A DNA stretch of 64,000 nt from Nitrosopumilus piranensis (GTDB lineage Archaea; Thermoproteota; Nitrososphaeria; Nitrososphaerales; Nitrosopumilaceae): positions 310,001 through 374,000 of the forward strand of contig NZ_CP010868.1 in assembly GCF_000875775.1 (NCBI RefSeq), written 5' to 3'. The notes below the pieces were generated by a model. That model did no database searches and had not been told where the DNA came from. It saw nothing but the letters and a program-made list of their open reading frames with translations. Made by a program: the position numbers and the translations under genes. How positions within the stretch are numbered: the first letter of the stretch is position 1; every line of letters begins with the position of its first letter. Below, one piece after another: positions 12,967 to 31,061 of this stretch.

Positions 12967-12987
12967 ATTGTTTGATAGTTATACCAA
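12967..12987 (-). promoter_or_regulatory. TATCAAACAA motif, copy 1
   Basis: The minus strand reads TTGGTATAACTATCAAACAA. It overlaps the likely TATA box of the membrane gene at 13002 (GTTATACC, about 26 bp before its ATG). Two further copies follow the adjacent regulator gene at 13919-13962. A recurring 20-bp element around a winged-helix gene suggests its operator. Confidence 0.5.
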
Positions 12988-13001
12988 TATTTTTTATTAT
13001 T

Positions 13002-13403
13002 ATGAATACAAATCAGATTATGCAGCAAATACATCTTGACAATAAAGGAAAATTCAAGATTCTTACAATAATTACAGGCATTTTAGTTGTAATAAGTGTC
13101 CCATTATTTTTACCTCATATTGAACATGGTCATGGCATTCACACTTTGATTCATGTGTCTGGAATAATTCTTGGAACGTTTCTTTCTGTTGTTGGGGCAA
13201 TAACATATCTAGAATACAAAACTCCTAGATTATTACTAGTGTTCTTAGCTTTTTTGGCAATAACAATAGGTGAGATATTGTCTGCTACAAACATGTTGTT
13301 TGTTTTCTGGCCTTCGTATTCTAGTATAGATTCTATGATTACCCATGGACTAATTCTAATGATGTTGACCTTCTTTTCATTTGGAATCTTTAGGAGAGAT
13401 TAA
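13002..13403 (+). CDS. Four-helix membrane protein paired with a winged-helix regulator (module 1)
   Basis: A 133-residue membrane protein with four hydrophobic segments and histidines near the membrane: LPHIEHGHGIHTLIHVSG at about 40-57. The homologue at 47888-48280 shares the layout PHLFHGYHLAHIFLHVGG and the ending GIFRRD/GVFRND. I choose ATG 13002 because the TATA-like element lies 26 bp upstream; an in-frame GTG at 12972 lies within that promoter. The next gene starts one base after the stop and encodes a DNA-binding protein, so the pair may be a membrane sensor and its regulator. The ligand is unknown. Confidence 0.62.
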   Translation: MNTNQIMQQIHLDNKGKFKILTIITGILVVISVPLFLPHIEHGHGIHTLIHVSGIILGTFLSVVGAITYLEYKTPRLLLVFLAFLAITIGEILSATNMLFVFWPSYSSIDSMITHGLILMMLTFFSFGIFRRD

Positions 13404-13404
13404 C

Positions 13405-13911
13405 ATGTTACGTGGAGTAAAAAAGAAACAAGCTATTCTAAGAGTGATTGAATCGAATCCAGGTACGGGATTTGTAGATATTCATAAACTAACTGGATTT
13501 GGTCACGGTGTTGTTAGTCATCACTTGAGTGTATTAGAAAAAGAAGGCTCTATTAGAATAAATCGTGAAAAACGAAATATCTGGGTATTTCAGTCATCAT
13601 TAGATCCTAACAATGATAGAATCATAATTGCATTAAGAAAAGAAACATGCAAAAACATTCTTGCATTCCTCTTAGATGTACATTCTGCAAATTTTGTACA
13701 AATACATAACACAATTAAAAAAAGCCCTGGAACCACTTCTGTCACTCTAAAAAAATTAGTTGAACTTGATGTAATCAAAATTATTCATGGATTCCCAAAA
13801 AAATATACTCTAAAAGATGAAATAAAAACCCGAAAATTATTTGATGCACTGATTGTGTCTTACACTGATGAACTCAAGGATAGATTTGCAGATACCTTCT
13901 CTTATCTCTAG
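13405..13911 (+). CDS. Tandem winged-helix transcriptional regulator (module 1)
   Basis: A 168-residue protein with two winged-helix domains. The first (about 1-65) reads KKKQAILRVIESNPGTGF then GHGVVSHHLSVLEKEG; the second (about 75-150) holds IALRKETCKNILAFLL and SPGTTSVTLKKLVELDV. Start is ATG 13405, one base after the membrane gene stop. The same two-domain protein, again next to a similar membrane protein, is encoded at 48273-48773. The TATCAAACAA motifs on both sides are candidate binding sites. Confidence 0.75.
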   Translation: MLRGVKKKQAILRVIESNPGTGFVDIHKLTGFGHGVVSHHLSVLEKEGSIRINREKRNIWVFQSSLDPNNDRIIIALRKETCKNILAFLLDVHSANFVQIHNTIKKSPGTTSVTLKKLVELDVIKIIHGFPKKYTLKDEIKTRKLFDALIVSYTDELKDRFADTFSYL

Positions 13912-13918
13912 TTTTGAA

Positions 13919-13962
13919 TTGGTATAATCATCAAACAAAAATTAGTATAACTATCAAACAAT
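13919..13962 (+). promoter_or_regulatory. TATCAAACAA motif, copies 2 and 3
   Basis: Two direct copies: TTGGTATAATCATCAAACAA from 13919 and GTATAACTATCAAACAAT (13945-13962). They match the inverted copy at 12967-12987 and lie upstream of the HTH gene at 14004. Their spacing is about 24 bp, a little over two helical turns. Confidence 0.52.
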
Positions 13963-14003
13963 AATACCCATTCATTAGTATCGAATTTCATTTTATTTAT
14001 CAG

Positions 14004-14270
14004 ATGAAATCTGAGAATCATTTTGATTATTGTAATGAAATATTATTGAATATACAAAAATTCCCAAAATCTGCCAAAGAAATATCTGCTGAAACCAAAA
14101 TCCCAATAACTACTGTTTACAAAATGATACGTCTTCTTGAAAGCCATGAATTGATTATGGCTTCGGGTATACTTCATAGATACGGAAAACGTCGTCTTTT
14201 TCAGTGTAATGGGGATTTCAAGTCTGCACATATCAAACTTCATAGAATTTTTCAAATTGAATTTGCTTGA
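14004..14270 (+). CDS. Small winged-helix protein
   Basis: An 88-residue protein consisting of one MarR/ArsR-like helix-turn-helix: KSAKEISAETKIPITTVYKMIRLLESHELI, then a wing with RYGKRRLFQCNG. It overlaps the EamA transporter gene by 4 bp (TTGA), so it probably controls its own operon. The TATCAAACAA motifs just upstream may be its target or that of the preceding regulator. Confidence 0.68.
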   Translation: MKSENHFDYCNEILLNIQKFPKSAKEISAETKIPITTVYKMIRLLESHELIMASGILHRYGKRRLFQCNGDFKSAHIKLHRIFQIEFA

Positions 14271-15148
14271 ATCTTTCAATAATTAGCCAAGCAAAGTTTG
14301 GGTATGTTTCAGCAGTATTGGCTGCTTTGTTGTTTGGTTCAGTATCTGCTGTTGCAAAACCATCACTAGTTACAATCCATCCAATACTTCTTGCATCACT
14401 TGTCTATTTGTTAGCATCCCTAGTTGCAACTCCTCTAATTTCAAAAAAGTCTTCATCAATTTCTTTTAAAGACAAATGGTTGTTGTTATCTATTGCACTT
14501 TCAGGTGCAGTAATTGGGCCAATATTATTTTTCATGGGGTTAGAAGAATCAAGTGCTTCTGATTCTGCATTGCTGCTTAATGGAGAAATAATTTTTTCAG
14601 TATTTCTTGCAATCTTGCTGTTTAGAGAAAAGATTTCAACAATTGGCTATCTTGCAGTTGCAATAGTGATTACAGGAGTAATCATAGTAACTACAGATTT
14701 GGAACTTTCTTATTCTGTATTTGACATTCAAAATCAAGGAAATCTTTTCATTCTTGGATCAACATTGTTTTGGGCTTTAGATAATAATCTGAGTAAAATT
14801 CTAAGTACAAGATTAGATGTTGCAAGAATTGTTCAATTAAAATCATTGATTGGAGGCTCTATTCTTTTGTTTTTTGTTTTTTTGTTACCAATTCCAATTA
14901 ATGTAGAGTTAGAACATGTTCCAAACATTCTGCTCTTAGGGATTGCAGGTTTTGGTGCATCCATCTTTCTTTTCTTACACAGCTTAAAGAGAATTGGAAC
15001 GGTAAAAACAATAATGATTTTTTCTACTTCTTCAGGTTTTGGTTTAATCTTTGCAGCAATATTTTTGCAAGAAGAGATTAGTTATTATCAAATAGTTGCA
15101 ATGGGAATAATCTTATCAGGAATTTACCTTTTATACAAAAAACAATAA
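14267..15148 (+). CDS. EamA/DMT-family membrane transporter
   Basis: A 293-residue protein with ten hydrophobic helices made of two EamA repeats. The first ends near FREKISTIGYLAVAIVITGV, the second near LQEEISYYQIVAMGIILSGI, the usual positions of the repeat ends. It starts with TTG overlapping the stop of the small HTH gene. The family exports metabolites; the substrate cannot be told from sequence. Confidence 0.85.
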   Translation: MNLSIISQAKFGYVSAVLAALLFGSVSAVAKPSLVTIHPILLASLVYLLASLVATPLISKKSSSISFKDKWLLLSIALSGAVIGPILFFMGLEESSASDSALLLNGEIIFSVFLAILLFREKISTIGYLAVAIVITGVIIVTTDLELSYSVFDIQNQGNLFILGSTLFWALDNNLSKILSTRLDVARIVQLKSLIGGSILLFFVFLLPIPINVELEHVPNILLLGIAGFGASIFLFLHSLKRIGTVKTIMIFSTSSGFGLIFAAIFLQEEISYYQIVAMGIILSGIYLLYKKQ

Positions 15149-15236
15149 TTTCAGCCTATTTGCTACCATTTGGGGTTTAAAATGTTAGCAAAGAACAAAA
15201 ATAAAACTGGTTTGATAGTGAGCATTAATTATATTA

Positions 15237-15252
15237 TTTTACAAATGTAAAA
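15237..15252. promoter_or_regulatory. Copper/thiol-island palindrome, site 1
   Basis: TTTTACAAATGTAAAA; centre about 45 bp before the GTG of the DsbA-like gene at 15290. A TATA-like GTTATTTA lies between site and start. Confidence 0.75.
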
Positions 15253-15289
15253 TTCTGTAGTTATTTACCACTCAATTAATATTTAATAT

Positions 15290-16039
15290 GTGCTAGCAAA
15301 AAATTTTGTAAAAAATAACTTCCTCCTTATTATCACATCAATAATGCTGATTGTATTTTTTCTAGAATATTTGGTTGGTGTAGAAGTTGGACAAGATAAT
15401 ATTAGAAAACAAGAGCTAGAAACTTTAGAACAAAGTCTAGATGATCTAAAAACTCCTGAAATTAGTCTCTTCTTTCAGATCTTAAAAGATGATGATCCTG
15501 TGTTAGGTGATCTTGATGCTTCTATATCCATTATTGAATTCTCAAACTTTCAATGCAAGTTTTGTCTTAGATTTTATTCTGATACCCTGCCATTACTAAA
15601 AACACAGTATATTGACACAGGAAAGGTAAATCTAGTCTATCGTGACTTTCCACTACCGCAAATTTATGCAAATTCAATGCCTGCAGCACTAGCTTCGGAA
15701 TGTGCTAATGAACAGGGTAAATTTTGGGAATATCATGATATGTTATTTGAAGATCAAAACTCCTGGAGACAAAATGATCCTGGTTTAGCTATTTCTACCT
15801 TCAAGCAGTTTGCAACAACACTTAATCTTGATCAAGAAAAATTTGACTCCTGCTTGGATTTAGGTAAATATTCTGATGAGATAAATTCTGATGTTGATGA
15901 TGGTCTTGACTATGTTGTCTCAGGAACCCCTACATTTTTTATTGGTAATGAAAAAATAGGATATTCCTCACTATTTGGAACCCAATCATTTTCAGATTTT
16001 CAAACTATAATTGATGAAAAATTATCCGATGACATGTAA
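15290..16039 (+). CDS. DsbA-like thiol oxidoreductase, membrane-anchored
   Basis: A 249-residue thioredoxin-fold protein of the DsbA type with an N-terminal membrane anchor (about 10-30) and a catalytic domain outside. The active site is FSNFQCKFCLRF (Cys89, Cys92), VYRDFPLP follows, and the cis-Pro loop is SGTPTFFIG. DsbA proteins oxidise or isomerise disulfides of exported proteins. The start is GTG with a palindromic site 45 bp upstream. It is one of four paralogues between 15 and 24.2 kb. Confidence 0.88.
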   Translation: MLAKNFVKNNFLLIITSIMLIVFFLEYLVGVEVGQDNIRKQELETLEQSLDDLKTPEISLFFQILKDDDPVLGDLDASISIIEFSNFQCKFCLRFYSDTLPLLKTQYIDTGKVNLVYRDFPLPQIYANSMPAALASECANEQGKFWEYHDMLFEDQNSWRQNDPGLAISTFKQFATTLNLDQEKFDSCLDLGKYSDEINSDVDDGLDYVVSGTPTFFIGNEKIGYSSLFGTQSFSDFQTIIDEKLSDDM

Positions 16040-16089
16040 GATAATTCCTTAGACATGTTCTATTTGCAATTAAATTTGATTGATTTATT

Positions 16090-16197
16090 CTATGTAAATG
16101 GAGTATCAATGACGCCTCTTGCAACTAGAATCATTAGTATTACAGGTATTCCCACTCCCACCAAAATTCCTGCAAAAACAAGATGATCTTTATCCAT
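16090..16197 (-). CDS. 35-residue single-helix membrane peptide
   Basis: A short minus-strand gene, ATG 16197 to TAG, encoding a peptide beginning MDKDHLVFAGILVGVG and ending VIDTPFT with one membrane helix (about 6-26). A regulon palindrome is centred 47 bp upstream of its ATG, the typical spacing for this island, which is the best argument that it is real. No family is known. Confidence 0.45.
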   Translation of the reverse strand: MDKDHLVFAGILVGVGIPVILMILVARGVIDTPFT

Positions 16198-16237
16198 ATT
16201 GTATAGAAATATCTTTTATCAGTTATTACTTTACATA

Positions 16238-16251
16238 TTTACAATTGTAAA
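16238..16251. promoter_or_regulatory. Copper/thiol-island palindrome, site 2
   Basis: TTTACAATTGTAAA; centred 47 bp before the small minus-strand gene at 16197 and 84 bp before the gene at 16329. It fits the minus-strand gene better. Confidence 0.72.
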
Positions 16252-16328
16252 ATTTTGAAATAAATTTAACAAAATTTTTACTTTTTAAATTTCGCTAAGT
16301 ACATTAAACTAATTTTAACATTATAATT

Positions 16329-16997
16329 ATGAAACTAATTTGGATAATCTTTCCATTAATTTTACTTCTAACAATTCCAACTGAAAAATCATTTGCAGAA
16401 GATTCCTCCAATCATGAAAAATGCATCAATACAAATAACACAAAAAATATAATATGTGATGAAACATTTAGGATCCAATCTGTAAATCTTTTTAGTGTTG
16501 TTGACAGCTCTGTTGGGATTTTTGAGGATCCTATTACCAAATTAACAATTGTGGATTTGGGAACATTTTATGGATTGGGGGGAAATGGAACAATTCCTGA
16601 TGAAATCAAAGTGTATAGAGATAATGTTCTATGGAAGACAACTACTAAAGAAACAGGTATTGCCCCTTCTACTTCTCACAGTGAATGGCAACTTCCACAG
16701 ACGTTCTTTTTTAATGAACTTCCAGGTAAGTACAAAATTGTTTTACTTACAAACAATATTGAAACACTAGTCTTTGAATTTTTAGTAATGCAAATTACTA
16801 GTGAATCACAAAAAAACAACGACTTGTTTAACTTGCCTCCTCTAAAACAAGTAAAAGATTATGCTATTGATCCTGGTCTTGTAAAATGTAACTTTGGATT
16901 GGATTTAATTTTCAAAAAAATTAATGGCTTACCTGCTTGTGTTTTTCCTAAAACTGTTGAAAAATTAATTGAACGCGGATGGGCAACTGTCATCTAA
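16329..16997 (+). CDS. Secreted protein with C-terminal GLPAC/RGW domain
   Basis: A 222-residue exported protein with signal peptide (1-23, ending KSFAED) and a beta-rich middle. The C-terminal 40 residues carry VKCNFGLDLIF, NGLPACVFP and LIERGWATVI. The same C-terminal pattern occurs in the proteins at 51823-52698 and, N-terminally, in the Met-rich protein at 10116. The two cysteines may form a disulfide that the neighbouring DsbA proteins make. Function is unknown. Confidence 0.65.
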   Translation: MKLIWIIFPLILLLTIPTEKSFAEDSSNHEKCINTNNTKNIICDETFRIQSVNLFSVVDSSVGIFEDPITKLTIVDLGTFYGLGGNGTIPDEIKVYRDNVLWKTTTKETGIAPSTSHSEWQLPQTFFFNELPGKYKIVLLTNNIETLVFEFLVMQITSESQKNNDLFNLPPLKQVKDYAIDPGLVKCNFGLDLIFKKINGLPACVFPKTVEKLIERGWATVI

Positions 16998-17023
16998 AAG
17001 AAATTTCCCTAACTCTAAAATTT

Positions 17024-17039
17024 CTTTACATTTGTAAAG
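17024..17039. promoter_or_regulatory. Copper/thiol-island palindrome, site 3
   Basis: CTTTACATTTGTAAAG; centre 44 bp before the GTG of the DsbA-like gene at 17076, with TATTATAT between. Confidence 0.75.
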
Positions 17040-17075
17040 ACCTGATATTATATTTCTTGAGAAATTATCTGTTGT

Positions 17076-17870
17076 GTGGAAGATTTTGAATTCATTGAGG
17101 ATAAAAAACTAGATAAACAAATTTCTGTAAACAAATCAACATTTAATCGACTCATTATTACAATTATCACAGTAGCTATTGTTTCTGCATTTTTAGGAGG
17201 TTATGTGATTGGTGGGGAAACTGCAGAACCAAAAGAAGTCATTGTAAGAGAAACTATTCAGAATCAAGCAATACAAACATCTCCACAACAAATTGGACCA
17301 CAAATTATTAGAAATATCTCGCTTGATGATGACCCTATGAAAGGAAATCCTGATGCACCAATTACTATAATTGAATTCTCTGATTTTCAATGTCCGTTTT
17401 GTGCAAAATTTCATGAGACAACACTTCCTCAGCTAGAACAAAACTATATCCAAACAGGCAAGGTAAATTTTGTTTACAGGGATTTCCCAATTCAAGGAAT
17501 TCATCCTAATGCTGCTCCTGCAGCACTAGCCTCTGAATGTGCAGATGATCAAGGAAGATTTTGGGAGATGCATGATATGATATTTGAAGGCCAACAAGTT
17601 TGGAAGGATCTACCAATTTCTCAGTCAGTTGCACTATACAAGCAATATGCTTTAGAACTTGGCCTTGACTCTAGTGAATTTGACTCATGTCTGGAATCGG
17701 GCAAACACATTGAAGAAATTCAAAATGATCTCAACGACGGTCGTATGTATGGTGTTTCTGGAACCCCTGGATTTTTTGTGGGAAACACAGATATTGGTTT
17801 CACTCCAATTACTGGAGCTCAACCATACTCTACATTTCAGAGAGTAATTGACAGTCAGTTAAACAGGTAA
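17076..17870 (+). CDS. DsbA-like thiol oxidoreductase, membrane-anchored
   Basis: A 264-residue member of the same family as 15290-16039. A membrane helix lies at about 26-48, then a linker rich in Gln, then the DsbA domain with FSDFQCPFCAKF (Cys106, Cys109), VNFVYRDFPIQG and the cis-Pro loop SGTPGFFVG. It has a leaderless GTG start, with TATTATAT 26 bp upstream preceded by a palindrome. The broken copper-oxidase gene follows after 4 bp. Confidence 0.9.
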   Translation: MEDFEFIEDKKLDKQISVNKSTFNRLIITIITVAIVSAFLGGYVIGGETAEPKEVIVRETIQNQAIQTSPQQIGPQIIRNISLDDDPMKGNPDAPITIIEFSDFQCPFCAKFHETTLPQLEQNYIQTGKVNFVYRDFPIQGIHPNAAPAALASECADDQGRFWEMHDMIFEGQQVWKDLPISQSVALYKQYALELGLDSSEFDSCLESGKHIEEIQNDLNDGRMYGVSGTPGFFVGNTDIGFTPITGAQPYSTFQRVIDSQLNR

Positions 17871-17874
17871 TAAA

Positions 17875-18254
17875 ATGAAATTTCTAAATTCTCTTGGAGG
17901 AAAAATTATTCTTGGCATAGCTTTTTTGTTTGTTTTATCTTTTTCAATAAACTATGCTTTTCCAACGCAAGACATTCAAACTCAAACATTGGTAACTAAT
18001 GTAAAAAATATTCAAACTACGGGAGATATAATCGATCCAATAAACTATGGCAATTTGTTTAATTATAATCCTGCAGTAACTCAAAATGAACACTCCTCGT
18101 TTACTGACGTGGTAACTATGTCTCAGGGTGATCGAGGAATAATTGAATTTGAGTACGACAATCCTGGAAAATACCTATTTCATGCCCATAAAACAGAATT
18201 ATCAGAAAAGGGTGGGTAGGCTCATTCGTGGTCAATGATTATTGTTTCTTATGA
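17875..18254 (+). pseudogene. Remnant of a multicopper oxidase
   Basis: A signal-peptide-like start (MKFLNSLGGKIILGIAFLF) is joined directly to the C-terminal end of a copper oxidase: NYGNLFNYNPAVTQ, VTMSQGDRGIIEFEYDNPGKY and LFHAHKTELSEKG. This matches the end of the oxidase at 33355-34419 (GIMEFEYEYPGKYLFHAHK). Most of the two cupredoxin domains is missing. One base is also missing after 18212; restoring it gives SEKG-WVGSFVVND and a stop at 18252. With only one copper ligand region it cannot be a working oxidase. Confidence 0.75.
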
Positions 18255-18270
18255 TTTTACAATTGTAAAG
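18255..18270. promoter_or_regulatory. Copper/thiol-island palindrome, site 4
   Basis: TTTTACAATTGTAAAG; centre 45 bp before the ATG of the AsnC-TRASH regulator gene, with ATAAATAT between. Suggests that the regulator acts on its own gene. Confidence 0.78.
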
Positions 18271-18307
18271 TTGGGTTCATAAATATGCAAAGTCTGTATC
18301 ATATTTC

Positions 18308-18751
18308 ATGCCTCATGAATTAGATGATGTTGATATTGGAATAGTGCAATCTCTTCAAGAAGATGGACGCAAGTCATTTAGACAAATAGCCAGAGAGCTT
18401 GATATCAGTACCCCCACAGTTCAAGCAAGATATCAAAGACTGGTAAATATTGGACTGATAAAATCAATTTCACCAATTATTGATTCATCAAATCTTGATC
18501 GTGAACATAAAGATAAAATTGAAACATGCGGTTGTCATTCTAATGGCTCTCATGATGTCTCTTTAGAATCTGGAATGTCTGTAAAACTAAAATGTGATTT
18601 ATGTGAAGGTCCAGTTGGAGATAAACCACATGTTTACAAATTTGCAAACTTTGAGAGATTTTTTTGTTGCAATACATGTAAAACTCAATACAAAGAAAAA
18701 AACAAAGGACGAATTCAATCTATTATAGAAAAAACAAGAGAAGAAAATTAA
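18308..18751 (+). CDS. AsnC/Lrp-type HTH regulator with TRASH metal-binding domain
   Basis: A 147-residue protein. Residues 5-65 are a Lrp/AsnC helix-turn-helix: LDDVDIGIVQSLQEDGR, FRQIARELDISTPTVQARYQ. The usual RAM domain is replaced by a TRASH-type zinc/copper-binding module (about 96-140): LKCDLCEGPV, then RFFCCNTCKTQYKEK. A further Cys pair in ETCGCHS precedes it. TRASH domains occur in archaeal copper regulators such as CopT of Sulfolobales. It is the only likely one-component metal regulator in the 15-31 kb island and is itself preceded by the island's palindrome. Confidence 0.85.
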   Translation: MPHELDDVDIGIVQSLQEDGRKSFRQIARELDISTPTVQARYQRLVNIGLIKSISPIIDSSNLDREHKDKIETCGCHSNGSHDVSLESGMSVKLKCDLCEGPVGDKPHVYKFANFERFFCCNTCKTQYKEKNKGRIQSIIEKTREEN

Positions 18752-18766
18752 TTTTACAATTGTAAG
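18752..18766. promoter_or_regulatory. Copper/thiol-island palindrome, site 5
   Basis: TTTTACAATTGTAAG; directly after the stop of the AsnC-TRASH gene and 53 bp (centre) before the GTG of the HtrA gene. Confidence 0.73.
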
Positions 18767-18811
18767 ATACTATTGTTATTTATCTCATAATTTATCTTCT
18801 ACTTGTATTAG

Positions 18812-19945
18812 GTGTATTTTTTGCTCAGAAATAATTCAAAAGTTTTGCTTGGAGGAGTAGTTTTTAGTGTTGTTTTGTTGTTAGGAGTGTCTGTTGCGTT
18901 TCTGTCCCCTGTTTTGGCACAAAACAATTCCTACTCCTCTGAGAACCTTCAGAATGATTTTGAATCCGCAAAAAACTTTTCACTTGTTGAAATTTTTGAA
19001 CGTTCAGAATTTGGTGTAGTTAGCATTGCCGTTGCAAAAACATCCCCTCATGGTGATTCTAATGGTGTTGGTTCTGGATTTGTTTTTGACAAGGAAGGCC
19101 ATATCATTACAAACAATCATGTAGTAAGAGATGCTAAAAAAATTGATATAACTTTTACTGATGGAACTTCATATAGAGCAAAAGTTGTAGGTACTGATCC
19201 ATATGCTGATATTGCAGTACTCAAAATTAATGTGAATTCTGAAAAACTTTATCCTTTACCAATAGGGAATTCCTCAAAACTCAAAGTTGGAGAACCGATA
19301 ACAGCCATTGGTAATCCGTTTGGATTATCAGGCTCTATGACCTCAGGTATTGTTAGTCAATTAGGAAGATTGCTTCCATCAGGGGTTGGATTTTCGATTC
19401 CTGACGTAATTCAAACAGATACTGCAATCAATCCTGGAAACTCTGGAGGACCATTGCTTAACATGATGGGAGAAGTAGTTGGAGTGAACACTGCAATTTA
19501 CTCAAGTGATGGCAGTTTTTCAGGGGTTGGATTTTCGATTCCCTCAAATGTGATTTTAAAAATTGTTCCTGTTTTGATCAAAGATGGTGAGTTCCATCAT
19601 CCTTGGGTTGGAATTTCTAGTGCGAACATCACACCTGATCTTGCAGAATTGTTGAATCTTAAAGATGCAAAAGGTGTTCAAATAATGACTGTTGTAAAAG
19701 ATAGCCCTGCTAACAAAGCAGGTCTTAAAGGCTCATCTGAAACTGCAGTGTATGATGAGGTTGAGTATACTGTAGGTGGAGATATCATTTTGTCAGTTGA
19801 TGGTAAGGAAGTAAGAAAAATTGATGATATTTTGACTCATCTACAACGTGAAAAAAATGTTGGTGATACATTGAATCTGGGAATTCTTAGGGATGGTAAA
19901 GCAATTAATGTTATCTTAACTCTTGAGCCAAGACCTGAATCATAA
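18812..19945 (+). CDS. HtrA/DegP-type serine protease, membrane-anchored
   Basis: A 377-residue trypsin-like protease with an N-terminal membrane segment (about 8-30). The catalytic triad is His in ITNNHVV, Asp in DPYADIAVLK and Ser in NPGNSGGPLL. One PDZ domain (about 270-370) contains SPANKAGLKG and GDIILSVDGKEV. HtrA proteases degrade or refold damaged proteins outside the cell membrane. Start is GTG, with an island palindrome upstream. Its place in the regulon suggests response to misfolding from copper or disulfide stress. Confidence 0.93.
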   Translation: MYFLLRNNSKVLLGGVVFSVVLLLGVSVAFLSPVLAQNNSYSSENLQNDFESAKNFSLVEIFERSEFGVVSIAVAKTSPHGDSNGVGSGFVFDKEGHIITNNHVVRDAKKIDITFTDGTSYRAKVVGTDPYADIAVLKINVNSEKLYPLPIGNSSKLKVGEPITAIGNPFGLSGSMTSGIVSQLGRLLPSGVGFSIPDVIQTDTAINPGNSGGPLLNMMGEVVGVNTAIYSSDGSFSGVGFSIPSNVILKIVPVLIKDGEFHHPWVGISSANITPDLAELLNLKDAKGVQIMTVVKDSPANKAGLKGSSETAVYDEVEYTVGGDIILSVDGKEVRKIDDILTHLQREKNVGDTLNLGILRDGKAINVILTLEPRPES

Positions 19946-20173
19946 TTATAAGATTTTTTCAAGCAGTTCGTGCTTTTTTGGAATTCCTGTGAATTCTAAT
20001 TTGTCATCAATAACTATTCCAGGTGCGGTAAATATTGGGTATTTTTCCAAGTATTCTGGTTTTTCTGTTACGTCTATTATTTGATAAGAGACATTCATGT
20101 CGTCTAACATTGCTTCTACCACTTTGCAATTTCCACAAGATGGTGTTGTTAGAATTTCTATCTTATGATTCAT
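19946..20173 (-). CDS. Small thioredoxin/glutaredoxin-like protein
   Basis: A 75-residue redox protein with the active site TTPSCGNCKVVEAM (CxxC near residue 12) and the cis-Pro region FTAPGIVIDDKLEF. I choose ATG 20173, as the upstream in-frame extension covers the YHS gene. It is the third gene of a ccdA-YHS-trx operon (11-bp overlap with the YHS gene), so it may exchange electrons with the membrane carrier CcdA or work on metal-bound thiols in the cytoplasm. Confidence 0.85.
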   Translation of the reverse strand: MNHKIEILTTPSCGNCKVVEAMLDDMNVSYQIIDVTEKPEYLEKYPIFTAPGIVIDDKLEFTGIPKKHELLEKIL

Positions 20174-20303
20174 TTTCAAATTGCTCTGGATTACTTTCAA
20201 ATGCCCATTTACAGCTGGCACAACAGAAACGATAATCTTTTCCATTATAAGACAACACTTCACCTTTTTCTCCAACTTCCATTCCGCATACAGGATCTTT
20301 CAT
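20163..20303 (-). CDS. YHS-domain metal-binding protein
   Basis: A 46-residue protein too short for usual gene finders. It begins MKDPVCGMEVGEKGEV and contains YRFCCASCKWAFE, the full YHS motif (DPVCGM ... FCC..C) known from copper-transporting ATPases and metal chaperones. Its ATG overlaps the CcdA stop (ATGA) and its end overlaps the thioredoxin-like gene, so it is the middle gene of a three-gene operon. Copper or another soft metal is the likely ligand. Confidence 0.82.
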   Translation of the reverse strand: MKDPVCGMEVGEKGEVLSYNGKDYRFCCASCKWAFESNPEQFENES

Positions 20304-21298
20304 GCATTCATCCCCCTGATTTTTCTAATTGAACGTATAAACAATGGACTCAATATCAGCACTGCTAACAAAGCAGTGTAAAATGTTTTGAAATCTGTTC
20401 CTTCATCATGTCTATGATCGTGCATATGTTCATCCATCTCAAATTCTGATGGGATTGGAGTCATCTCTATGAATTGGTTCCACCCTTGATGGATAAATGT
20501 CTCTTCATACCATTCATGTCCTTCTGGCAACCCATTGATTATCAAAAATGCTCCAATTATTATTAACAACCATCCAGATGCCCGTTCAATTGATTCTCTT
20601 TTTAGAGTAAGACTCTTTGTTGCATTGATTCCAATTACTGCAAGAACTGACATCAAAATTAATGGAATTGCTCTTCCTACTCCGTGAACTACTCCTAATG
20701 AGGCTCCCACTTCAATACTTCCTGTTCCTGCAATATAGATGAGGAGCCAATAAAATAGCGGATTGGGACATCCAACTCCTGCATTTCCTAGTAACAACCC
20801 CATGAAAAATGATTTTGTATACTCTCCTCTGTTTTGGATGAACTTTGGTGTTCCTGAATATGATGGAAGTTTTAATGAAATAATTTTTAATTGTGATAAT
20901 CCAAAAATAAATGCAGCAATTCCAGCAATTAAAAACATTATGGTTGATGCTTGATCTAGAGACGCACTTTGTCCTACTGCTGCAATTGCAATTCCATAAG
21001 ATGCTATTGTAATAGTTAACCCTAAACCAAAAAGCAATGCCATTGACAATCCTTTCTTGTATCCCTGTCCCATGCTTAATGGAACTATGATGAATACTAG
21101 TGGTAATGTACATGGCAAAACAATCATAGACAGTCCAGCAACATATGCAATTATAATCCATGAGAGATATGTTGTGTGCTCTTTTCCGTCAATCGTAAAA
21201 TTTGTTCCAAGTGAAAAAATTATCCCAAGAAAAATTAATGAAAATAATCCAAATGAAATTATGACCATTGATTTTTTTGCAATTACTACCGAAGACAT
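20300..21298 (-). CDS. ccdA: CcdA/DsbD-type thiol-disulfide electron carrier
   Basis: A 332-residue membrane protein of the CcdA family, which passes electrons from cytoplasmic thioredoxin to outer thiols. The two conserved membrane cysteines are visible in MIVLPCTLPLVF (about residue 62) and NAGVGCPNPLFYWLL (about 180). A His-rich outer loop, DEHMHDHRHDEG near 293-304, may bind metal. A palindrome lies 45 bp upstream. The YHS and thioredoxin-like genes follow in the same operon. It would supply reductant to the DsbA-like proteins nearby. Confidence 0.9.
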   Translation of the reverse strand: MSSVVIAKKSMVIISFGLFSLIFLGIIFSLGTNFTIDGKEHTTYLSWIIIAYVAGLSMIVLPCTLPLVFIIVPLSMGQGYKKGLSMALLFGLGLTITIASYGIAIAAVGQSASLDQASTIMFLIAGIAAFIFGLSQLKIISLKLPSYSGTPKFIQNRGEYTKSFFMGLLLGNAGVGCPNPLFYWLLIYIAGTGSIEVGASLGVVHGVGRAIPLILMSVLAVIGINATKSLTLKRESIERASGWLLIIIGAFLIINGLPEGHEWYEETFIHQGWNQFIEMTPIPSEFEMDEHMHDHRHDEGTDFKTFYTALLAVLILSPLFIRSIRKIRGMNA

Positions 21299-21335
21299 GC
21301 GATTCTACACTTAATTTTGATACTTAACAAGTAGG

Positions 21336-21350
21336 CTTTACAAATGTAAG
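21336..21350. promoter_or_regulatory. Copper/thiol-island palindrome, site 6
   Basis: CTTTACAAATGTAAG; centre 45 bp before the ATG of ccdA on the minus strand, with GTTAAGTA between. Confidence 0.75.
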
Positions 21351-21385
21351 ATAGTTTTTTCTTACCGTCATTAGAATTCTTTCTG

Positions 21386-22051
21386 TTATATCATTGACTC
21401 AATTATTTTCTCAAACACTGGATATGGTTGTGGCCCAACTATTTTTTCCTGTTCTCCATTTGGTCCTATGATGAAAAATGTAGGTGTGCCTGTAACCCCG
21501 TTTCTTTGTGCCTCGTTTGTGTTGAATTGGACTCTTTTTGAGTATTTTTCAGAATCAAGACAACTCACAAACATCTCCATATTTAGTCCAAGATTGTTTG
21601 CATATCCTTTCAAACTATCTGAATTGGCCCATCCATTATCAATTGATAGTTGATTTGAATACAAAAATCCATGATAGTCCCAATATCTGCCTTGATCTTC
21701 GGCACAATAAGTTGCAATTGATGCAGGACCTGAATCTTTTCCCAAGAATGCTATGTCTACAAATACTAAGTTGACTTTGCCTGTATCTATGTAGTTAGTC
21801 ACAATGTCTGGTTTTGTATTTAGAAACCATTTCTTACAGTTTGAACACTGGTAATCTCCAAATTCTATTATCGTAATGGGCGCATCAGATGTTCCCAACA
21901 TTGGAGAACCTAATGATGTGTCAACAGTACCAATCTTTCTATTTATGTCTAGATTAATTGATTCTGAATCAATTGATATTTGAGAAAAAATTATTCCTAA
22001 TGATATTACTCCTGCAGTCATCACTATCAAAGAAAAATATTTTGTTTTCAA
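21386..22051 (-). CDS. DsbA-like thiol oxidoreductase, membrane-anchored
   Basis: A 221-residue third member of the DsbA-like group: N-terminal membrane anchor (about 5-25), FGDYQCSNCKKWF (Cys69, Cys72), VNLVFVDIAFLG in place of the usual YRDFP, and the cis-Pro loop TGTPTFFIIGPNG. The site upstream is degenerate (half-sites at 22091 and 22124), so control may be weaker than for the paralogues. Upstream on the same strand is a cupredoxin gene. Confidence 0.87.
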   Translation of the reverse strand: MKTKYFSLIVMTAGVISLGIIFSQISIDSESINLDINRKIGTVDTSLGSPMLGTSDAPITIIEFGDYQCSNCKKWFLNTKPDIVTNYIDTGKVNLVFVDIAFLGKDSGPASIATYCAEDQGRYWDYHGFLYSNQLSIDNGWANSDSLKGYANNLGLNMEMFVSCLDSEKYSKRVQFNTNEAQRNGVTGTPTFFIIGPNGEQEKIVGPQPYPVFEKIIESMI

Positions 22052-22090
22052 TTGACTACTCCTGATTTTGAAATTCTATAAAACAATATT

Positions 22091-22138
22091 TTTTACAAAT
22101 AACTGACATACTTAATCCCTATACTTTACAAATGACAG
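22091..22138. promoter_or_regulatory. Degenerate island half-sites
   Basis: TTTTACAAAT (22091-22100) and CTTTACAAATGACAG (22124-22138) match half of the palindrome. The first lies about 40 bp before the DsbA-like gene at 22051. They may be weak sites. Confidence 0.35.
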
Positions 22139-22141
22139 TTT

Positions 22142-22603
22142 TTAGAATCGACTCTTCTCTACAGAAATTTTTCCTGTCATCCAAGGATGTGGTTGACAAT
22201 GATAAGGGACTTCTTGCTCTTCTGTAAATAAGAACTCATATGTGTCACCAGGTTTTAGAACTCCCACAGATCCAAATTCACCACTATATCCATCAGTCTG
22301 TCTATGATCAGGAGTCACAGTATGTGCAGTGTCATCATTATTTTTCCAAATTACTTTGTTGTTTATTGTAAGTAATGCTGTTGCCTTATTTGGAACATAG
22401 TTTTCATTTCCTTCTATTACTGCTCCAGGAACAATTTCAATAACTAATTCTTTTTCAGGGTTCAGTATGTGTTCAGAAACAGATGGTTTTGCTAATGATT
22501 CAGGAAGATAAAATGAAGTGTAAAAAACTACTGTGGCTGACATGCCGACAATTAATGCAATTAATCCAATTCCATAAGCATGACTAGATGTTGGAGTGCT
22601 CAA
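22142..22603 (-). CDS. Membrane-anchored cupredoxin (plastocyanin-like)
   Basis: A 153-residue blue-copper protein with one N-terminal membrane helix (about 9-32). The type 1 copper ligands are visible: His in DTAHTVTPDH and Cys-His-Met in PYHCQPHPWMTG. It probably carries electrons outside the membrane between respiratory or ammonia-oxidation complexes. Two island palindromes lie upstream (22641 and 22677), the nearer at the standard 45 bp spacing. Confidence 0.9.
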   Translation of the reverse strand: MSTPTSSHAYGIGLIALIVGMSATVVFYTSFYLPESLAKPSVSEHILNPEKELVIEIVPGAVIEGNENYVPNKATALLTINNKVIWKNNDDTAHTVTPDHRQTDGYSGEFGSVGVLKPGDTYEFLFTEEQEVPYHCQPHPWMTGKISVEKSRF

Positions 22604-22640
22604 TGTTTGAATTGTTGAAAATAGATATTTAATGAATATA

Positions 22641-22655
22641 CTTTACAAATGTAAG
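22641..22655. promoter_or_regulatory. Copper/thiol-island palindrome, site 7
   Basis: CTTTACAAATGTAAG; centre 45 bp before the cupredoxin ATG at 22603 on the minus strand. Confidence 0.75.
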
Positions 22656-22676
22656 ATTATGAAATACATTTTTTGC

Positions 22677-22690
22677 CTTACAAGTGTAAG
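22677..22690. promoter_or_regulatory. Copper/thiol-island palindrome, site 8
   Basis: CTTACAAGTGTAAG; a second site 35 bp (about 3.4 helical turns) beyond site 7. The pair is the only double site in the island. Confidence 0.65.
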
Positions 22691-22767
22691 CTATATTTGT
22701 TAAGTATCTACTTTGTTTATAGAATTCGTGCTTGTAGTTTGTTTCCGATCCAACACTATAGAGCAAT

Positions 22768-22807
22768 ATTTTGAAGGGGATAGGCCTCTCTAAATCTCCT
22801 TCAAAAT
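22768..22807 (+). ncRNA. Candidate small RNA 3' hairpin
   Basis: ATTTTGAAGGGGAT pairs with ATCTCCTTCAAAAT over 14 positions with a single G-U pair, around a 12-nt loop. A run of seven T follows. The 145 bp between sites 8 and 9 hold no gene, so this may be the end of a small RNA. The transcript start is not identifiable by eye. It could instead be only a structured terminator. Confidence 0.35.
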
Positions 22808-22835
22808 AATTTTTTTCACTTATTGTAGTTTTAGT

Positions 22836-22853
22836 ACTTTACAATTGTAAAGT
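22836..22853. promoter_or_regulatory. Copper/thiol-island palindrome, site 9
   Basis: ACTTTACAATTGTAAAGT, a perfect 18-bp palindrome; centre 47 bp before the ATG at 22892, with TTTTTTAATA between. Confidence 0.8.
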
Positions 22854-22891
22854 GCTCTTTTTTAATACACAACATCCTGATTAAATGTAGG

Positions 22892-23512
22892 ATGGCTAGC
22901 CAAACTTTGTGGATAGGAATTACTGTTGGAGTATTTTTTGTAGGATTACTTATAGGATTTACTGCATTTACAGGTTCGATGACTTTTGATAATATGTCAA
23001 TGCAGAATCAAATGATGAATGATAATCAAGCCATGAATCAATGGATAAACTCTATGACAAATGATCCACAAATGCAGCAACAGATAATGAATATGATGAT
23101 GCAAAATCCACAACAGATGCAACAAATGATTATGGATACAATGGATGATTCTGATCAAATGACAATGATGGAAGATATGATGGATGATATGATGCAAAGA
23201 ATGAAAACTGATCCTGAATTAGAAAAAGCAATGATGAAACATATGGCAAACATGAAAGCATCTAGAGATGCTATGATGGGAACGAATATGATGATGAATC
23301 AAGAAATGATGATACAATTGATGGACGATTCTGAAACTAGGGAAACAATGATTCAGATGATGTCAAAACATGTATCTGACATACAAGAATTATTGTCTTC
23401 TGATTTGACTGATGATGAATTTAATATGAAAATGACTGAACTAATGCACAAACATGTATCGGAAATGCAAGATTTTATGTCACATCAAACAACGATGCAA
23501 TCTATGAACTAG
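22892..23512 (+). CDS. Membrane-anchored Met-rich protein
   Basis: A 206-residue protein with one N-terminal membrane helix (about 5-28) and an outer part rich in Met, Gln and Asp: NDPQMQQQIMNMMMQNPQ, MMEDMMDDMMQRM. It is a shorter relative of the protein at 10116-11465, without the perfect tandem repeat. Methionine clusters fit Cu(I) binding. It lies 36 bp before a DsbA-like gene on the same strand, probably in one transcript driven by a perfect island palindrome. Confidence 0.75.
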   Translation: MASQTLWIGITVGVFFVGLLIGFTAFTGSMTFDNMSMQNQMMNDNQAMNQWINSMTNDPQMQQQIMNMMMQNPQQMQQMIMDTMDDSDQMTMMEDMMDDMMQRMKTDPELEKAMMKHMANMKASRDAMMGTNMMMNQEMMIQLMDDSETRETMIQMMSKHVSDIQELLSSDLTDDEFNMKMTELMHKHVSEMQDFMSHQTTMQSMN

Positions 23513-23548
23513 CGTTATGAAAAAAATAAAAAAATCTGTATTATTATA

Positions 23549-24202
23549 ATGTCAATTGTAATTATAGTTTTAATAGCCGCCTCCTTCTCTTTACAGAATT
23601 TTGACTCTGTCACCACTTTAGAAAATACACCTGACATTATTCTAACAAATGTTGATTATTTTGAAAGAATTCCTTCAGATTTACCAATAGTTGGAATCTC
23701 TGATGCTCCTGTAACAATTTTTGCATTTAATGATTATCAATGCCTATCTTGTAAATTTTGGTATGAAAAAGAATATCCCAAAATCTCAGAAAATCTCATC
23801 AAAACAAACAAAGCTAATATGGTATTTTTAGATGCACCTACATTTGGAAATGACTCAATTTTAATCTCCCAAGCTACATTTTGTGCAGATGAACAAGGGA
23901 AATACTCCGAATATCAAAAAACATTATTTTCAAAACAACAAGAGATTGATAGCTGGGCAAAATTACAACAACTAAAGGATTTTGCAATGGATTTGAATTT
24001 GAATATGGAAAAGTTTGCAAACTGTCTGGATTCAGGAAAATATGAAAAAGATGTACAAGCTAATATTGATTACACGACTAGTATGGGTGTTGAAAAAATT
24101 CCCTTGTTTAAAATCATCAATTTTGAAGGCAAAGAATTTGTACTAAAGGGTAGCATTCCAAGTACTTTGTTTGAAGAAACTGTCAATAGATTTCAAAATT
24201 AA
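23549..24202 (+). CDS. DsbA-like thiol oxidoreductase, divergent copy
   Basis: A 217-residue fourth DsbA-like protein with an N-terminal anchor (about 2-15), FNDYQCLSCKFWYEK (Cys65, Cys68) and the cis-Pro loop EKIPLFKII, less typical than SGTP in the paralogues. It has no palindrome of its own and likely shares the transcript of the Met-rich gene. The stop overlaps that of the convergent zinc-ribbon gene by 4 bp. Confidence 0.83.
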   Translation: MSIVIIVLIAASFSLQNFDSVTTLENTPDIILTNVDYFERIPSDLPIVGISDAPVTIFAFNDYQCLSCKFWYEKEYPKISENLIKTNKANMVFLDAPTFGNDSILISQATFCADEQGKYSEYQKTLFSKQQEIDSWAKLQQLKDFAMDLNLNMEKFANCLDSGKYEKDVQANIDYTTSMGVEKIPLFKIINFEGKEFVLKGSIPSTLFEETVNRFQN

Positions 24203-24420
24203 TACCAAACACAATTTCTCTTTATTTGGATCTCTTTTCTAGCCTTGTTTCCTCTTGGTGTGACTCTTAGTTTAACACTGCAACAAGGACATCTTGTACC
24301 TGCATATGACAAGAATTCTGAACAGACTGGACATCTCTTTTGTCCCTTTACATACCTGTGCTTCCCTTCGTAACCTTTAGCTTTGAATCTTACACATATG
24401 CCTTTACATATTGTTGCCAT
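24199..24420 (-). CDS. Small zinc-ribbon protein (copy 1)
   Basis: A 73-residue basic protein with ICKGICVRFKAKGYEG, GQKRCPVCSEFL and RCPCCSVKLR, that is, a likely four-Cys zinc ribbon plus an N-terminal Cys pair. A paralogue lies at 25524-25730 (NGVCQRYKAKK, GQKRCNICGVFM, FCPCCNMRIR). Both are preceded by island palindromes. The role is unknown; nucleic-acid binding or metal buffering are possible. Confidence 0.72.
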   Translation of the reverse strand: MATICKGICVRFKAKGYEGKHRYVKGQKRCPVCSEFLSYAGTRCPCCSVKLRVTPRGNKARKEIQIKRNCVWY

Positions 24421-24461
24421 CTTGATGTTGTGTGATTTTGTTGATACTTAACTTGTTGATA

Positions 24462-24475
24462 TTACAATTGTAAAG
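24462..24475. promoter_or_regulatory. Copper/thiol-island palindrome, site 10
   Basis: TTACAATTGTAAAG; shared by divergent genes: centre 48 bp before the start at 24420 (minus) and 43 bp before 24512 (plus). Confidence 0.75.
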
Positions 24476-24511
24476 TGACTTAAATTAATACAACTTGTTC
24501 TAGCTGTAATC

Positions 24512-24715
24512 ATGAAACTCAATAAAAAAACACAAATGTATATTTTACTTGCAGTAATCTGGTTTGTCATTTCATTACCATTGCCTTGGATAATTAACAA
24601 TCCTCTGGTTTCAGAGTCGTCATTTTTTACTATCTTGGGAATTATTGGAATAATGTCTATTCCATTTGTAATGTTAGGTGTGGCATGGAGCATAAAGCCT
24701 GAGCTTACTAGTTGA
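24512..24715 (+). CDS. Small two-helix membrane protein
   Basis: A 67-residue protein with two hydrophobic helices (about 9-28 and 38-60) and short basic ends. No family is recognised. The island palindrome lies 43 bp upstream with CTTAAATT in the TATA position, so it belongs to the regulon. Confidence 0.58.
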   Translation: MKLNKKTQMYILLAVIWFVISLPLPWIINNPLVSESSFFTILGIIGIMSIPFVMLGVAWSIKPELTS

Positions 24716-24719
24716 TTAA

Positions 24720-24733
24720 TTTACAATTGTAAA
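24720..24733. promoter_or_regulatory. Copper/thiol-island palindrome, site 11
   Basis: TTTACAATTGTAAA; 91 bp (centre) before the gene at 24818. A start of transcription near 24771 would leave a leader of about 47 nt with a 7-codon frame (MRISNIV). Confidence 0.7.
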
Positions 24734-24817
24734 CTAATATTATTAAGTATGTATTTGCATTTTTTCTAGTATGAGAATTTCAAACATTGTTTGAAATGTA
24801 TGTTGAGTTGATTCAAA

Positions 24818-25516
24818 ATGAATAAATTAAAAATTAAAAATAATATTGTAACTAGACATTTACTTGTATTTTCAATTGCACTATCGTTAACTTTTGTTTT
24901 TTGGTTGGCTCATTTTGAATGGGAAGATGAAATGCGATTATGGAGGGCATTTGGTGATTCTGGATATACTTTGCTGTTTGTAACTTTGATTATTGGACCA
25001 TTAAGTAAACTGTGGGGGCGTTCAACCTTTTTGCTTACATGGAGACGAGAGTTTGGAATTTGGTTTGCTGTAATGGCAGTCACTCATGGAATTCTGATTG
25101 CAAATGGATGGGCAAATTGGGATGTTGCCAAATTTTTTGGGTACGAATTTATTCCTCAATTGGGAAGAATGGTTAGGTTGGAGCCTGGATTTGGGCTTGC
25201 AAATACTCTGGGATTTGTAGCATTCTTATGGATTACAATTTTGGCCATAACTTCTTCTGATAGAGCAATGAAGTGGTTGGGGGCATCTCCTTGGAAGTGG
25301 ATTCACACTGGCTCTCACATTGTTTTCTATCTTGTAGCCATTCATACTTCATATTTTCTTTTTATTCATTATACAGAATCCTTTCACAAAACAGTACCTC
25401 CAGAAAGTACTTTCATAGTTCCATTTATTATGATGAGTGTGATGGTTCTCACCTTGCAAATATTGTCTTACATCAAAGTAGTAAGATCAAAAAACAAACG
25501 CATTGCTCAAAAGTAA
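24818..25516 (+). CDS. Ferric-reductase-like (MsrQ-type) heme membrane protein
   Basis: A 232-residue protein with about six membrane helices and the ferric reductase-like fold. Candidate heme ligands are in MAVTHGILI, WIHTGSHIVFY and VAIHTSYFLF. The family includes MsrQ, which feeds electrons to periplasmic methionine sulfoxide reductase. In this island of Met-rich and thiol proteins a repair or metal-reduction role is plausible, but no MsrP-like gene is adjacent. Confidence 0.78.
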   Translation: MNKLKIKNNIVTRHLLVFSIALSLTFVFWLAHFEWEDEMRLWRAFGDSGYTLLFVTLIIGPLSKLWGRSTFLLTWRREFGIWFAVMAVTHGILIANGWANWDVAKFFGYEFIPQLGRMVRLEPGFGLANTLGFVAFLWITILAITSSDRAMKWLGASPWKWIHTGSHIVFYLVAIHTSYFLFIHYTESFHKTVPPESTFIVPFIMMSVMVLTLQILSYIKVVRSKNKRIAQK

Positions 25517-25523
25517 AACATTC

Positions 25524-25730
25524 TTAAATTCTTTGGATTCTAAGATGCTTTTCTTTTAGTTTTGAATATCTAGATGAAACTCTAATTCTCATGTTGCAGC
25601 AGGGGCAAAACAATCCATCCCAATTCATAAACACCCCACAAATATTGCATCTCTTTTGTCCTGCTTCGTATCTACTTGTGCTTTTAGGTTTTTTTGCTTT
25701 GTATCTTTGGCATACTCCATTACAACTCAT
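25524..25730 (-). CDS. Small zinc-ribbon protein (copy 2)
   Basis: A 68-residue paralogue of 24199-24420: NGVCQRYKAKKPK, GQKRCNICGVFMNWDG, FCPCCNMRIRVSS. Both have an N-terminal C-x3-C followed by two CxxC pairs. It is convergent with the ferric-reductase-like gene and has an island palindrome 62 bp upstream. Confidence 0.72.
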   Translation of the reverse strand: MSCNGVCQRYKAKKPKSTSRYEAGQKRCNICGVFMNWDGLFCPCCNMRIRVSSRYSKLKEKHLRIQRI

Positions 25731-25784
25731 GAAAGTAATCTCATTTTCAATAATTGAAATACCTTTTGAAAATTATTGTCAATA

Positions 25785-25800
25785 TTTTACAATTGTAAAA
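25785..25800. promoter_or_regulatory. Copper/thiol-island palindrome, site 12
   Basis: TTTTACAATTGTAAAA, perfect; 62 bp before the zinc-ribbon gene (minus) and 49 bp before a possible mini-gene at 25842 (plus). Confidence 0.74.
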
Positions 25801-25841
25801 CTATACAATTATCTATCATAAATTTTTAACATGAAGTTCGT

Positions 25842-25931
25842 TTGAAATTACAATCTAACAGTAAATTTTCTTTATTGATAATAATTGGTGGAATAATATC
25901 TTATTTTTTACTTGTAAATATTATAAAATAA
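25842..25931 (+). CDS. Possible 29-residue membrane peptide
   Basis: A TTG-started frame encoding a peptide beginning MKLQSNSKFSLLIIIGG and ending LLVNIIK, a single membrane helix. The only support is its position 49 bp (centre) after an island palindrome, the normal spacing, and the good fit of charge before helix. The rest of the 309-bp gap 25731-26039 holds nothing I can name. Confidence 0.3.
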   Translation: MKLQSNSKFSLLIIIGGIISYFLLVNIIK

Positions 25932-26039
25932 TCTCTTTATATTTAATACAAGTTTACAAATCTAAATAGGATTAATACGGTTAATGAAATTAATTTTTTG
26001 TATTAATTTAATATTCTTCATAATGAAAAATTTTGAAAC

Positions 26040-26420
26040 TTAGTGTTGCAAGTTTTCTTCCCTATATTCTTTATTTACTGATATGTGGTGATCTGCAAAT
26101 ACTGTTACAGATTCCATTTTGTTGTCATTTGGAGGTGTAAGAATTATTCTATTCCTAACATCAAGTGTACCAAGTTCCATTTTTTTGCCTTCCCCAAAAT
26201 CTATTTTGATATCTGTCAGTGGTTTTGAACCTGTATTTTGTATTAGCACCTGTCCTATGGTACTATTTTTTTGATTATCAATTATTGCTTCAACATGAAG
26301 ATCATACTCTTGTAGACCCACAAACATTTTTGCCATGGGAAATCCCATTATCCCACCAATTACAACTACGATTAATATGCCAAAAACAATCATGATGTTG
26401 TATATTTTCAAAATCATCAA
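26040..26420 (-). CDS. Membrane-anchored extracytoplasmic protein
   Basis: A 126-residue protein with one N-terminal membrane helix (about 8-30) and a beta-rich outer domain: GQVLIQNTGSKPLTDIKIDFG resembles CARDB/Ig-like folds. A His pair lies near the end (ADHHISVN). No enzyme motif is seen. It is divergent from the multicopper oxidase; the palindrome at 26515 is about 100 bp from its start, so control is uncertain. Confidence 0.6.
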   Translation of the reverse strand: MMILKIYNIMIVFGILIVVVIGGIMGFPMAKMFVGLQEYDLHVEAIIDNQKNSTIGQVLIQNTGSKPLTDIKIDFGEGKKMELGTLDVRNRIILTPPNDNKMESVTVFADHHISVNKEYREENLQH

Positions 26421-26514
26421 AAGTTGTTATGACAATGATATTAACTATTAACATTAGAATCTTAATTACAAAATTTTACATCTAAAAATTAGTTTATCAT
26501 AATTAAACTAGTAT

Positions 26515-26529
26515 CTTTACAAGTGTAAA
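26515..26529. promoter_or_regulatory. Copper/thiol-island palindrome, site 13
   Basis: CTTTACAAGTGTAAA; 74 bp (centre) before the TTG of the multicopper oxidase, leaving room for a leader of about 28 nt. Confidence 0.68.
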
Positions 26530-26595
26530 TATTTGTATTTTGTATAATTGGAAAACATTTGATTATTATATTAAAAACAATTAAAAAAAATACAT

Positions 26596-29962: not shown

Positions 29963-29970
29963 ATTTTGTC

Positions 29971-31046: not shown

Positions 31047-31061
31047 CTTTACAATTGTAAA
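31047..31061. promoter_or_regulatory. Copper/thiol-island palindrome, site 14
   Basis: CTTTACAATTGTAAA; between the divergent Kelch gene (61 bp) and the small His-rich gene (50 bp to its TTG). It is the last site in the window. Confidence 0.75.

Follow-up and report, generated by a model that had tools for sequence, protein, structure and literature searches.

Archaeal ammonia oxidation relies on copper enzymes, and to our knowledge the control of copper in ammonia-oxidizing archaea (AOA) is still unexplained. A 64,000-nucleotide stretch of the Nitrosopumilus piranensis genome (NZ_CP010868.1, positions 310,001 to 374,000; hereafter the window) brings this question down to a single locus, where a gene for a small helix-turn-helix (HTH) protein is flanked on both sides by the palindrome ACTTTACAATTGTAAAGT, centred about 45 bp upstream of its ATG and found again after its stop. 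A sequence-only reading had cast this protein as the likely master regulator of the surrounding island and of itself, sensing copper or thiol state. What does the protein sense, which genes does it act on and with which sign? We consider it likely that it represents the ammonia-oxidizer branch of the CopR/CopT regulators, a Cu(I)-sensing and activating factor that would control its own gene and a copper/disulfide island. Judging from the sequences compared here it very probably detects copper and, via one palindrome, switches on its own gene and some dozen others nearby.

The Pfam matches of the 147-aa regulator comprise an AsnC-type HTH (PF13404, residues 5-45, E 1.1e-13, above the curated cut-off) and an Arc_trans_TRASH domain (PF08394, residues 94-132, E 7e-8, 32.9 bits against a cut-off of 27); the scan gave no match to the RAM domain (AsnC_trans_reg, PF01037), in agreement with the earlier proposal of an Lrp/AsnC HTH with TRASH in place of RAM. 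An AlphaFold model built with 38 homologues (mean pLDDT 75.6) predicts the HTH (residues 5-52) and the TRASH module (residues 94-132; two strands, a helix and a C-terminal helix) with confidence, and between them a low-confidence, disordered linker of about residues 53-90 in which residues 73-85 fall below a pLDDT of 50. The cysteine motifs LKCDLC, FFCCNTC and CGC (residues 74-76) are all present as first read, but only C96, C99, C120, C121 and C124 are invariant in the TRASH core of the 38 sequences compared; the idea that CGC forms a third, indispensable metal site was rejected, since the motif is lost in one close relative and absent beyond the close clade. An N-terminal AsnC/Lrp HTH followed by a C-terminal TRASH domain is likewise the layout of Pyrococcus furiosus CopR (PF0739) and of CopR/CopT (Sulfolobus solfataricus SSO2652 and its relatives), from which the present regulator differs in having a linker that leaves no room for a RAM domain and no His-rich C-terminal tail, its sequence ending in ...RIQSIIEKTREEN. 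Such a tail is a feature of Thermococcales and does not define the family (PMC7830388). The Lrp/AsnC (feast/famine) regulators similarly combine an N-terminal winged HTH with a compact palindromic operator, the RAM domain being absent here. Since L086 (genome G142), a relative that belongs to a different family within the order, is still HTH-RAM-TRASH, with PF01037 present, the RAM domain was probably lost in the lineage of the regulator, and the L086 arrangement would be the ancestral form.

The palindrome is concentrated around this gene. The window contains 27 matches with at most two mismatches compared with 12.7 +/- 3.9 in shuffles, and pattern searches of the complete 1.71-Mb genome found 23 perfect copies of TTACANNTGTAA against 10 of the reversed pattern. 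Fourteen of the 23 lie within 15.8 kb (window 15239-31060) and nine in the other 1.7 Mb, a clustering with a Poisson P of ~1e-26 when the expectation is taken from the density outside the island. The copy before the regulator is where it had been described, its centre 45.5 bp upstream of the ATG. The copy behind the stop is also in the expected position, but the idea that it gives the regulator a second operator was rejected: it occupies the promoter of the HtrA-like gene, to which we reassign it, and it is kept at that place in 10 distinct sister loci.

Table 1. Palindromes and genes of the island (window coordinates; offsets count from the palindrome core)
Feature	Position	Strand	Remarks
DsbA-gene palindrome	15238..15251		DsbA-like gene start GTG 15290, 39 bp past core
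DsbA-like thioredoxin (Thioredoxin_4)	15290..16039	+	Pfam; matched in 12/13 sister islands
Palindrome	16238..16251		Upstream of 16329-16997 (222 aa, no Pfam); start 78 bp off, TATA less clear
Palindrome	17025..17038		DsbA gene start GTG 17076, 38 bp past core
DsbA-like thioredoxin	17076..17870	+	Pfam; followed by Cu-oxidase_2 fragment ORF 17875-18219
Autoregulatory palindrome TTTACAATTGTAAA (putative)	18256..18269		TATA-like ATAAATAT 10 bp past core; ATG 39 bp past core (probably leaderless)
CopR/CopT-like regulator gene	18308..18751	+	ATG start, 147 aa; Pfam, AlphaFold model, invariant Cys
Palindrome TTTACAATTGTAAG	18753..18766		One change relative to TTTACAATTGTAAA; 1 base past regulator stop; promoter site of HtrA-like gene
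HtrA/DegP-like secreted protease (Trypsin_2 + PDZ)	18812..19945	+	Pfam
Thioredoxin/glutaredoxin-domain ORF	19946-20275	-	Pfam; downstream of DsbD
YHS mini-protein, 46 aa, MKDPVCGMEV...FCCASCK	20163-20303	-	Pfam; absent from the ORF list; between DsbD and thioredoxin gene, DsbD operon
DsbD-like transmembrane protein	20300..21298	-	Pfam
Palindrome	21337..21350		DsbD gene (-) start 39 bp past core; TATA TTAAGTAT at +10
DsbA-like thioredoxin	21386..22051	-	Pfam; upstream only degenerate half-matching site CTTTACAAATGACAG near 22126
Plastocyanin/azurin-family copper protein	22142..22603	-	Pfam
Palindrome	22642..22655		Plastocyanin-like gene (-); TATA TTAAATAT at +10; TTG start at +39
Palindrome CTTACAAGTGTAAG	22677..22690		TATA TTAAGTAT at +10; no protein gene, would drive candidate small RNA
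Candidate copper-regulon small RNA, ~95 nt	22728..22820	+	Two hairpins and U-tract; under palindrome promoter 22677
Palindrome	22838..22851		Met-rich secreted protein, ATG at +41
Met-rich membrane-anchored protein	22892..23512	+	Followed by DsbA-like gene 23549-24202
Palindrome	24461..24474		Between divergent small genes of 67 aa (+, 24512-24715) and 73 aa (-, 24199-24420)
Palindrome	24720..24733		Upstream of ferric-reductase-like membrane protein 24818-25516 (Pfam)
Palindrome	25786..25799		No assigned target gene; further degenerate copies near 25905 and 25953
Palindrome	26516..26529		Upstream of multicopper oxidase 26596-28209 (CueO/CopA-MCO-like)
Palindrome	31048..31061		Between kelch-repeat gene (29971-30993, -) and His-rich secreted 77-aa ORF (~31104-31337, +)

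The extent of the island was judged by comparing the genes at 12972-31491 with 13 sister islands. The regulator and the small thioredoxin (19946) are matched in all 13, DsbD and the first DsbA in 12, and the genes before 15238 in none; the conserved island therefore starts at about 15238. The comparison also bears on the identity of the DNA-binding protein, as the genome encodes several other AsnC/HTH proteins, one of them at 13381-13911, and the HTH-TRASH gene might be a mere target of a palindrome recognised by another factor. We regard this as very improbable: the gene at 13381, like its neighbours, is missing from all the sister islands that keep the TRASH gene and was rejected as the true binder, throughout the order the site is found together with the TRASH gene, and the number of motifs tracks the gene. 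The role of master regulator first proposed holds for the island with its 14 sites. Among the small proteins encoded there, the 73-aa product is Cys-rich, basic and conserved (MATICKGICVRF...CPVCSEF...CPCCSVKLR); it lies under a palindrome in ~10 loci and belongs to no Pfam family.

The co-occurrence of protein and motif across genomes was a check that could have failed, and palindrome counts do track the regulator gene. Eleven of 80 genomes surveyed in the genus, many related genomes being draft metagenome bins, encode a close orthologue (at least 75% identity) and three a more distant one. The strand-counts of the palindrome range from 13 to 52 (median 31) in the 11 genomes with a close orthologue against a median of 6 in the 66 without, about a fivefold difference (Mann-Whitney P 1e-7), and G031 has two copies of the regulator gene and two clusters of sites. 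Genomes that keep the motif and lack the protein, named beforehand as the observation that would speak against the pairing, were sought by counts only; the highest count was 20, in G041, whose sites are scattered over eight contigs with no cluster, and it was rejected as a motif-rich counterexample. Homologues of 76-82% identity on contigs labelled Phycisphaerae, Saprospiraceae, Amylibacter and Planctomycetota (L121, L123, L124 and L135) all come from OFTM bins and most likely reflect Nitrosopumilus contigs that were wrongly assigned to bacterial MAGs.

Control of its own gene, the other half of the original proposal, draws support from the upstream sequences of the family. A genome scan yielded 80 named homologue loci, corresponding to 78 distinct genes with readable upstream DNA, and a perfect TTTACANNTGTAAA lies within 100 bp upstream of 48 of them (51 when one mismatch is allowed), mostly 31-43 bp before the start, compared with 0.03% and 0.13%, respectively, in shuffled upstream DNA. 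In a maximum-likelihood tree the self-site occurs in every deep clade, and its distribution takes 7 changes against 22.7 for shuffled labels. It is absent from 27 of the 79 tree members, among them a paralogous clade with a KKHFHV linker (L021, L022, L060, L074-L077, L081 and L092) and a few other homologues. The Nitrososphaera homologues read have no upstream self-site, though in Nitrososphaera genomes with the KKHFHV type the palindrome still precedes copA and YHS genes.

The palindromes share a strict promoter geometry. When sites were aligned in an orientation set by the nearest ORF alone, the only feature standing out was a TATA-like TTAAATAT at 10-17 bp past the 12-bp core; in an orientation-free TATA test on 415 oriented sites from all loci, a good TATA 8-mer sits at an offset of exactly +10 in 104, compared with ~4 at a typical other offset. 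Start codons follow ~38 bp past the core, at 38-39 bp in all 22 distinct DsbD orthologues, for which starts near 38 bp had been chosen; the regulator starts, set by homology, still fall mostly 31-43 bp past the site. Because only ~26-28 bp separate TATA and start codon, the mRNAs from these promoters would mostly be leaderless.

A possible mechanism is suggested by P. furiosus CopR, whose binding site TTNNCAWWWTGNNAA lies immediately before the BRE; the protein stays on this site whether or not copper is present, activates copA and requires TRASH for its metal sensitivity (PMC7830388). Its operator shares with TTTACA-NN-TGTAAA the half-site TTnnCA and the position upstream of the BRE, and differs in a centre of 3 bp rather than the 2 bp found here. 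From this match we infer dimer binding, Cu(I) as effector and activation as the sign of regulation, with a permanently bound dimer that would respond to copper. The AsnC-type HTH dimer would occupy ACTTTACA-WW-TGTAAAGT, abutting the BRE and exactly 10 bp upstream of TATA; Cu(I) bound by the TRASH cysteines (CxxC...FCCxxC) would alter the contacts of the bound protein with TBP/TFB, and in the presence of copper the dimer would help these factors, such that transcription starting ~38 bp past the site increases. The regulon would comprise the regulator's own gene and those for DsbA, DsbD, HtrA, the cupredoxin, the multicopper oxidase, the Met-rich protein and the small RNA.

The sign of this regulation is where the main rival arises, because the Thermococcus onnurineus CopR has been reported to act as a repressor, as discussed in PMC7830388. 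The same protein could block TFB/TBP at the BRE until Cu(I) releases it, a reading to which the abutment of the site on the BRE lends itself; P. furiosus CopR, moreover, represses its own promoter (PMC7830388), and the high conservation of the autoregulatory site suits negative feedback. Against copper-relieved repression, the rigid 10-bp spacing from TATA and a site that lies upstream of, rather than overlapping, the promoter elements are an activator geometry, and mutants of S. solfataricus, Halobacterium and P. furiosus show positive control of copA (PMC7830388). The regulator is probably an activator, and we hold repression to be the less likely, though still sizeable, alternative.

Evidence on the effector comes from other genera and the genes that this palindrome precedes there: 37 distinct P1B-ATPases, which carry a CPC copper motif and have HMA or YHS at the N-terminus, and 15 metallochaperone-type YHS mini-proteins, together 52 and the commonest non-self targets across AOA. 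Further proteins assigned by Pfam are 22 DsbD, 20 DsbA-like, DoxX, Met-rich and rhodanese proteins. In L132, L134, L145 and L173 (Nitrosotenuis- and Nitrosotalea-type loci) one palindrome is common to a divergently transcribed regulator and copA, the copR/copA arrangement of P. furiosus (PMC7830388). The proposal of copper or thiol sensing is thereby favoured in its copper half, and thiol state finds no specific support. The island does hold four DsbA-like genes, DsbD, a thioredoxin and HtrA, and the TRASH cysteines could be oxidized; a disulfide-stress regulon, or a response to another soft metal (Ag, Hg, Zn), is nonetheless improbable given the copper ATPases and YHS proteins among the targets and the plastocyanin-like protein, CueO-like oxidase and Met-rich protein of the island itself.

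The genome of the window departs from its relatives in this respect, as a search at E<=1e-20 found no copper P1B-ATPase (copA) in it, an absence that stands out beside its many copper proteins. CopR/CopT regulators are linked to, or control, CopA and a metallochaperone, an association seen in the relatives; here a YHS mini-protein lies in the DsbD operon, and the predicted targets encode secreted Dsb proteins, a cupredoxin and an oxidase, as well as the putative small RNA. CopA is likewise missing at this threshold from the island carriers G078, G058 and G052, and a match is present in G013, G031, G046 and G064. The clustering of several targets in one genomic region is a trait held in common with CopR/CopT.

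One palindrome faces no protein gene and would instead drive a small RNA. Counterparts in the corresponding position exist in five further genomes (six Nitrosopumilus genomes in all), divergent from the plastocyanin-like gene wherever the neighbour was read, with MFE z-scores of -3.1 to -7.0. RNAalifold finds two-sided changes in 4 of 16 pairs among the six sequences, and the covariation score of a 21-pair structure was reached by 4 of 500 shuffles, slid controls being lower. Coming from six related sequences, these results are suggestive, not proof, of a structured RNA. An Rfam scan of the island, the candidate included, gave no match, and a leaderless mini-ORF was rejected as its reading frame is not kept among the six genomes. 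The small RNA is probably its own unit, because the next gene differs in G052 and G031.

Other copper systems help to place the circuit. The cop box of the Firmicutes regulator CopY, TACAnnTGTA, looks identical to the core palindrome; the regulator families are unrelated and the likeness is presumably convergent. In Nitrososphaera viennensis, of the same order, NVIE_012920 and two further genes encode SSO2652-like regulators called CopT that adjoin CopZ and CopA2 (PMC7785015), and HTH-TRASH copper regulators as such are known; we found no report of an operator for these CopT genes in the open-licence literature. The Cu-limitation motif of N. viennensis, TTCSGSMTTTGWACYANT (PMC7785015), is a different sequence unrelated to the palindrome and was rejected as a match. 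Points that weigh against placing the regulator in the CopR branch are the 2-bp instead of 3-bp spacer, the missing copA in the genome of the window, the 27 of 79 homologues without self-site, the lack of RAM as a dimerization surface and the repressor role of the T. onnurineus protein.

New findings are the operator and the strict geometry of its promoters, the conservation of this operator throughout the order, a shared regulon of copA, YHS and Dsb genes, the absence of copA from part of the marine carriers and, probably, a small RNA. We see about an even chance that AOA inherited one ancestral CopR-palindrome circuit, with the site 10 bp from TATA and leaderless transcripts, and that some marine Nitrosopumilus rewired it in the absence of copA to an extracytoplasmic copper/disulfide module (DsbA/DsbD/HtrA, cupredoxin, multicopper oxidase and Met-rich protein) and to a new copper-controlled small RNA of ~95 nt. 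With a regulator, an exact operator, a promoter geometry and an order-wide list of targets in hand, the question of copper control becomes directly testable, the materials being a single purified protein and an oligonucleotide of 18 bp. The findings suggest that genomes in which no copper-export ATPase was detected follow an extracytoplasmic copper strategy, and they point to a small RNA that is probably regulated by copper.
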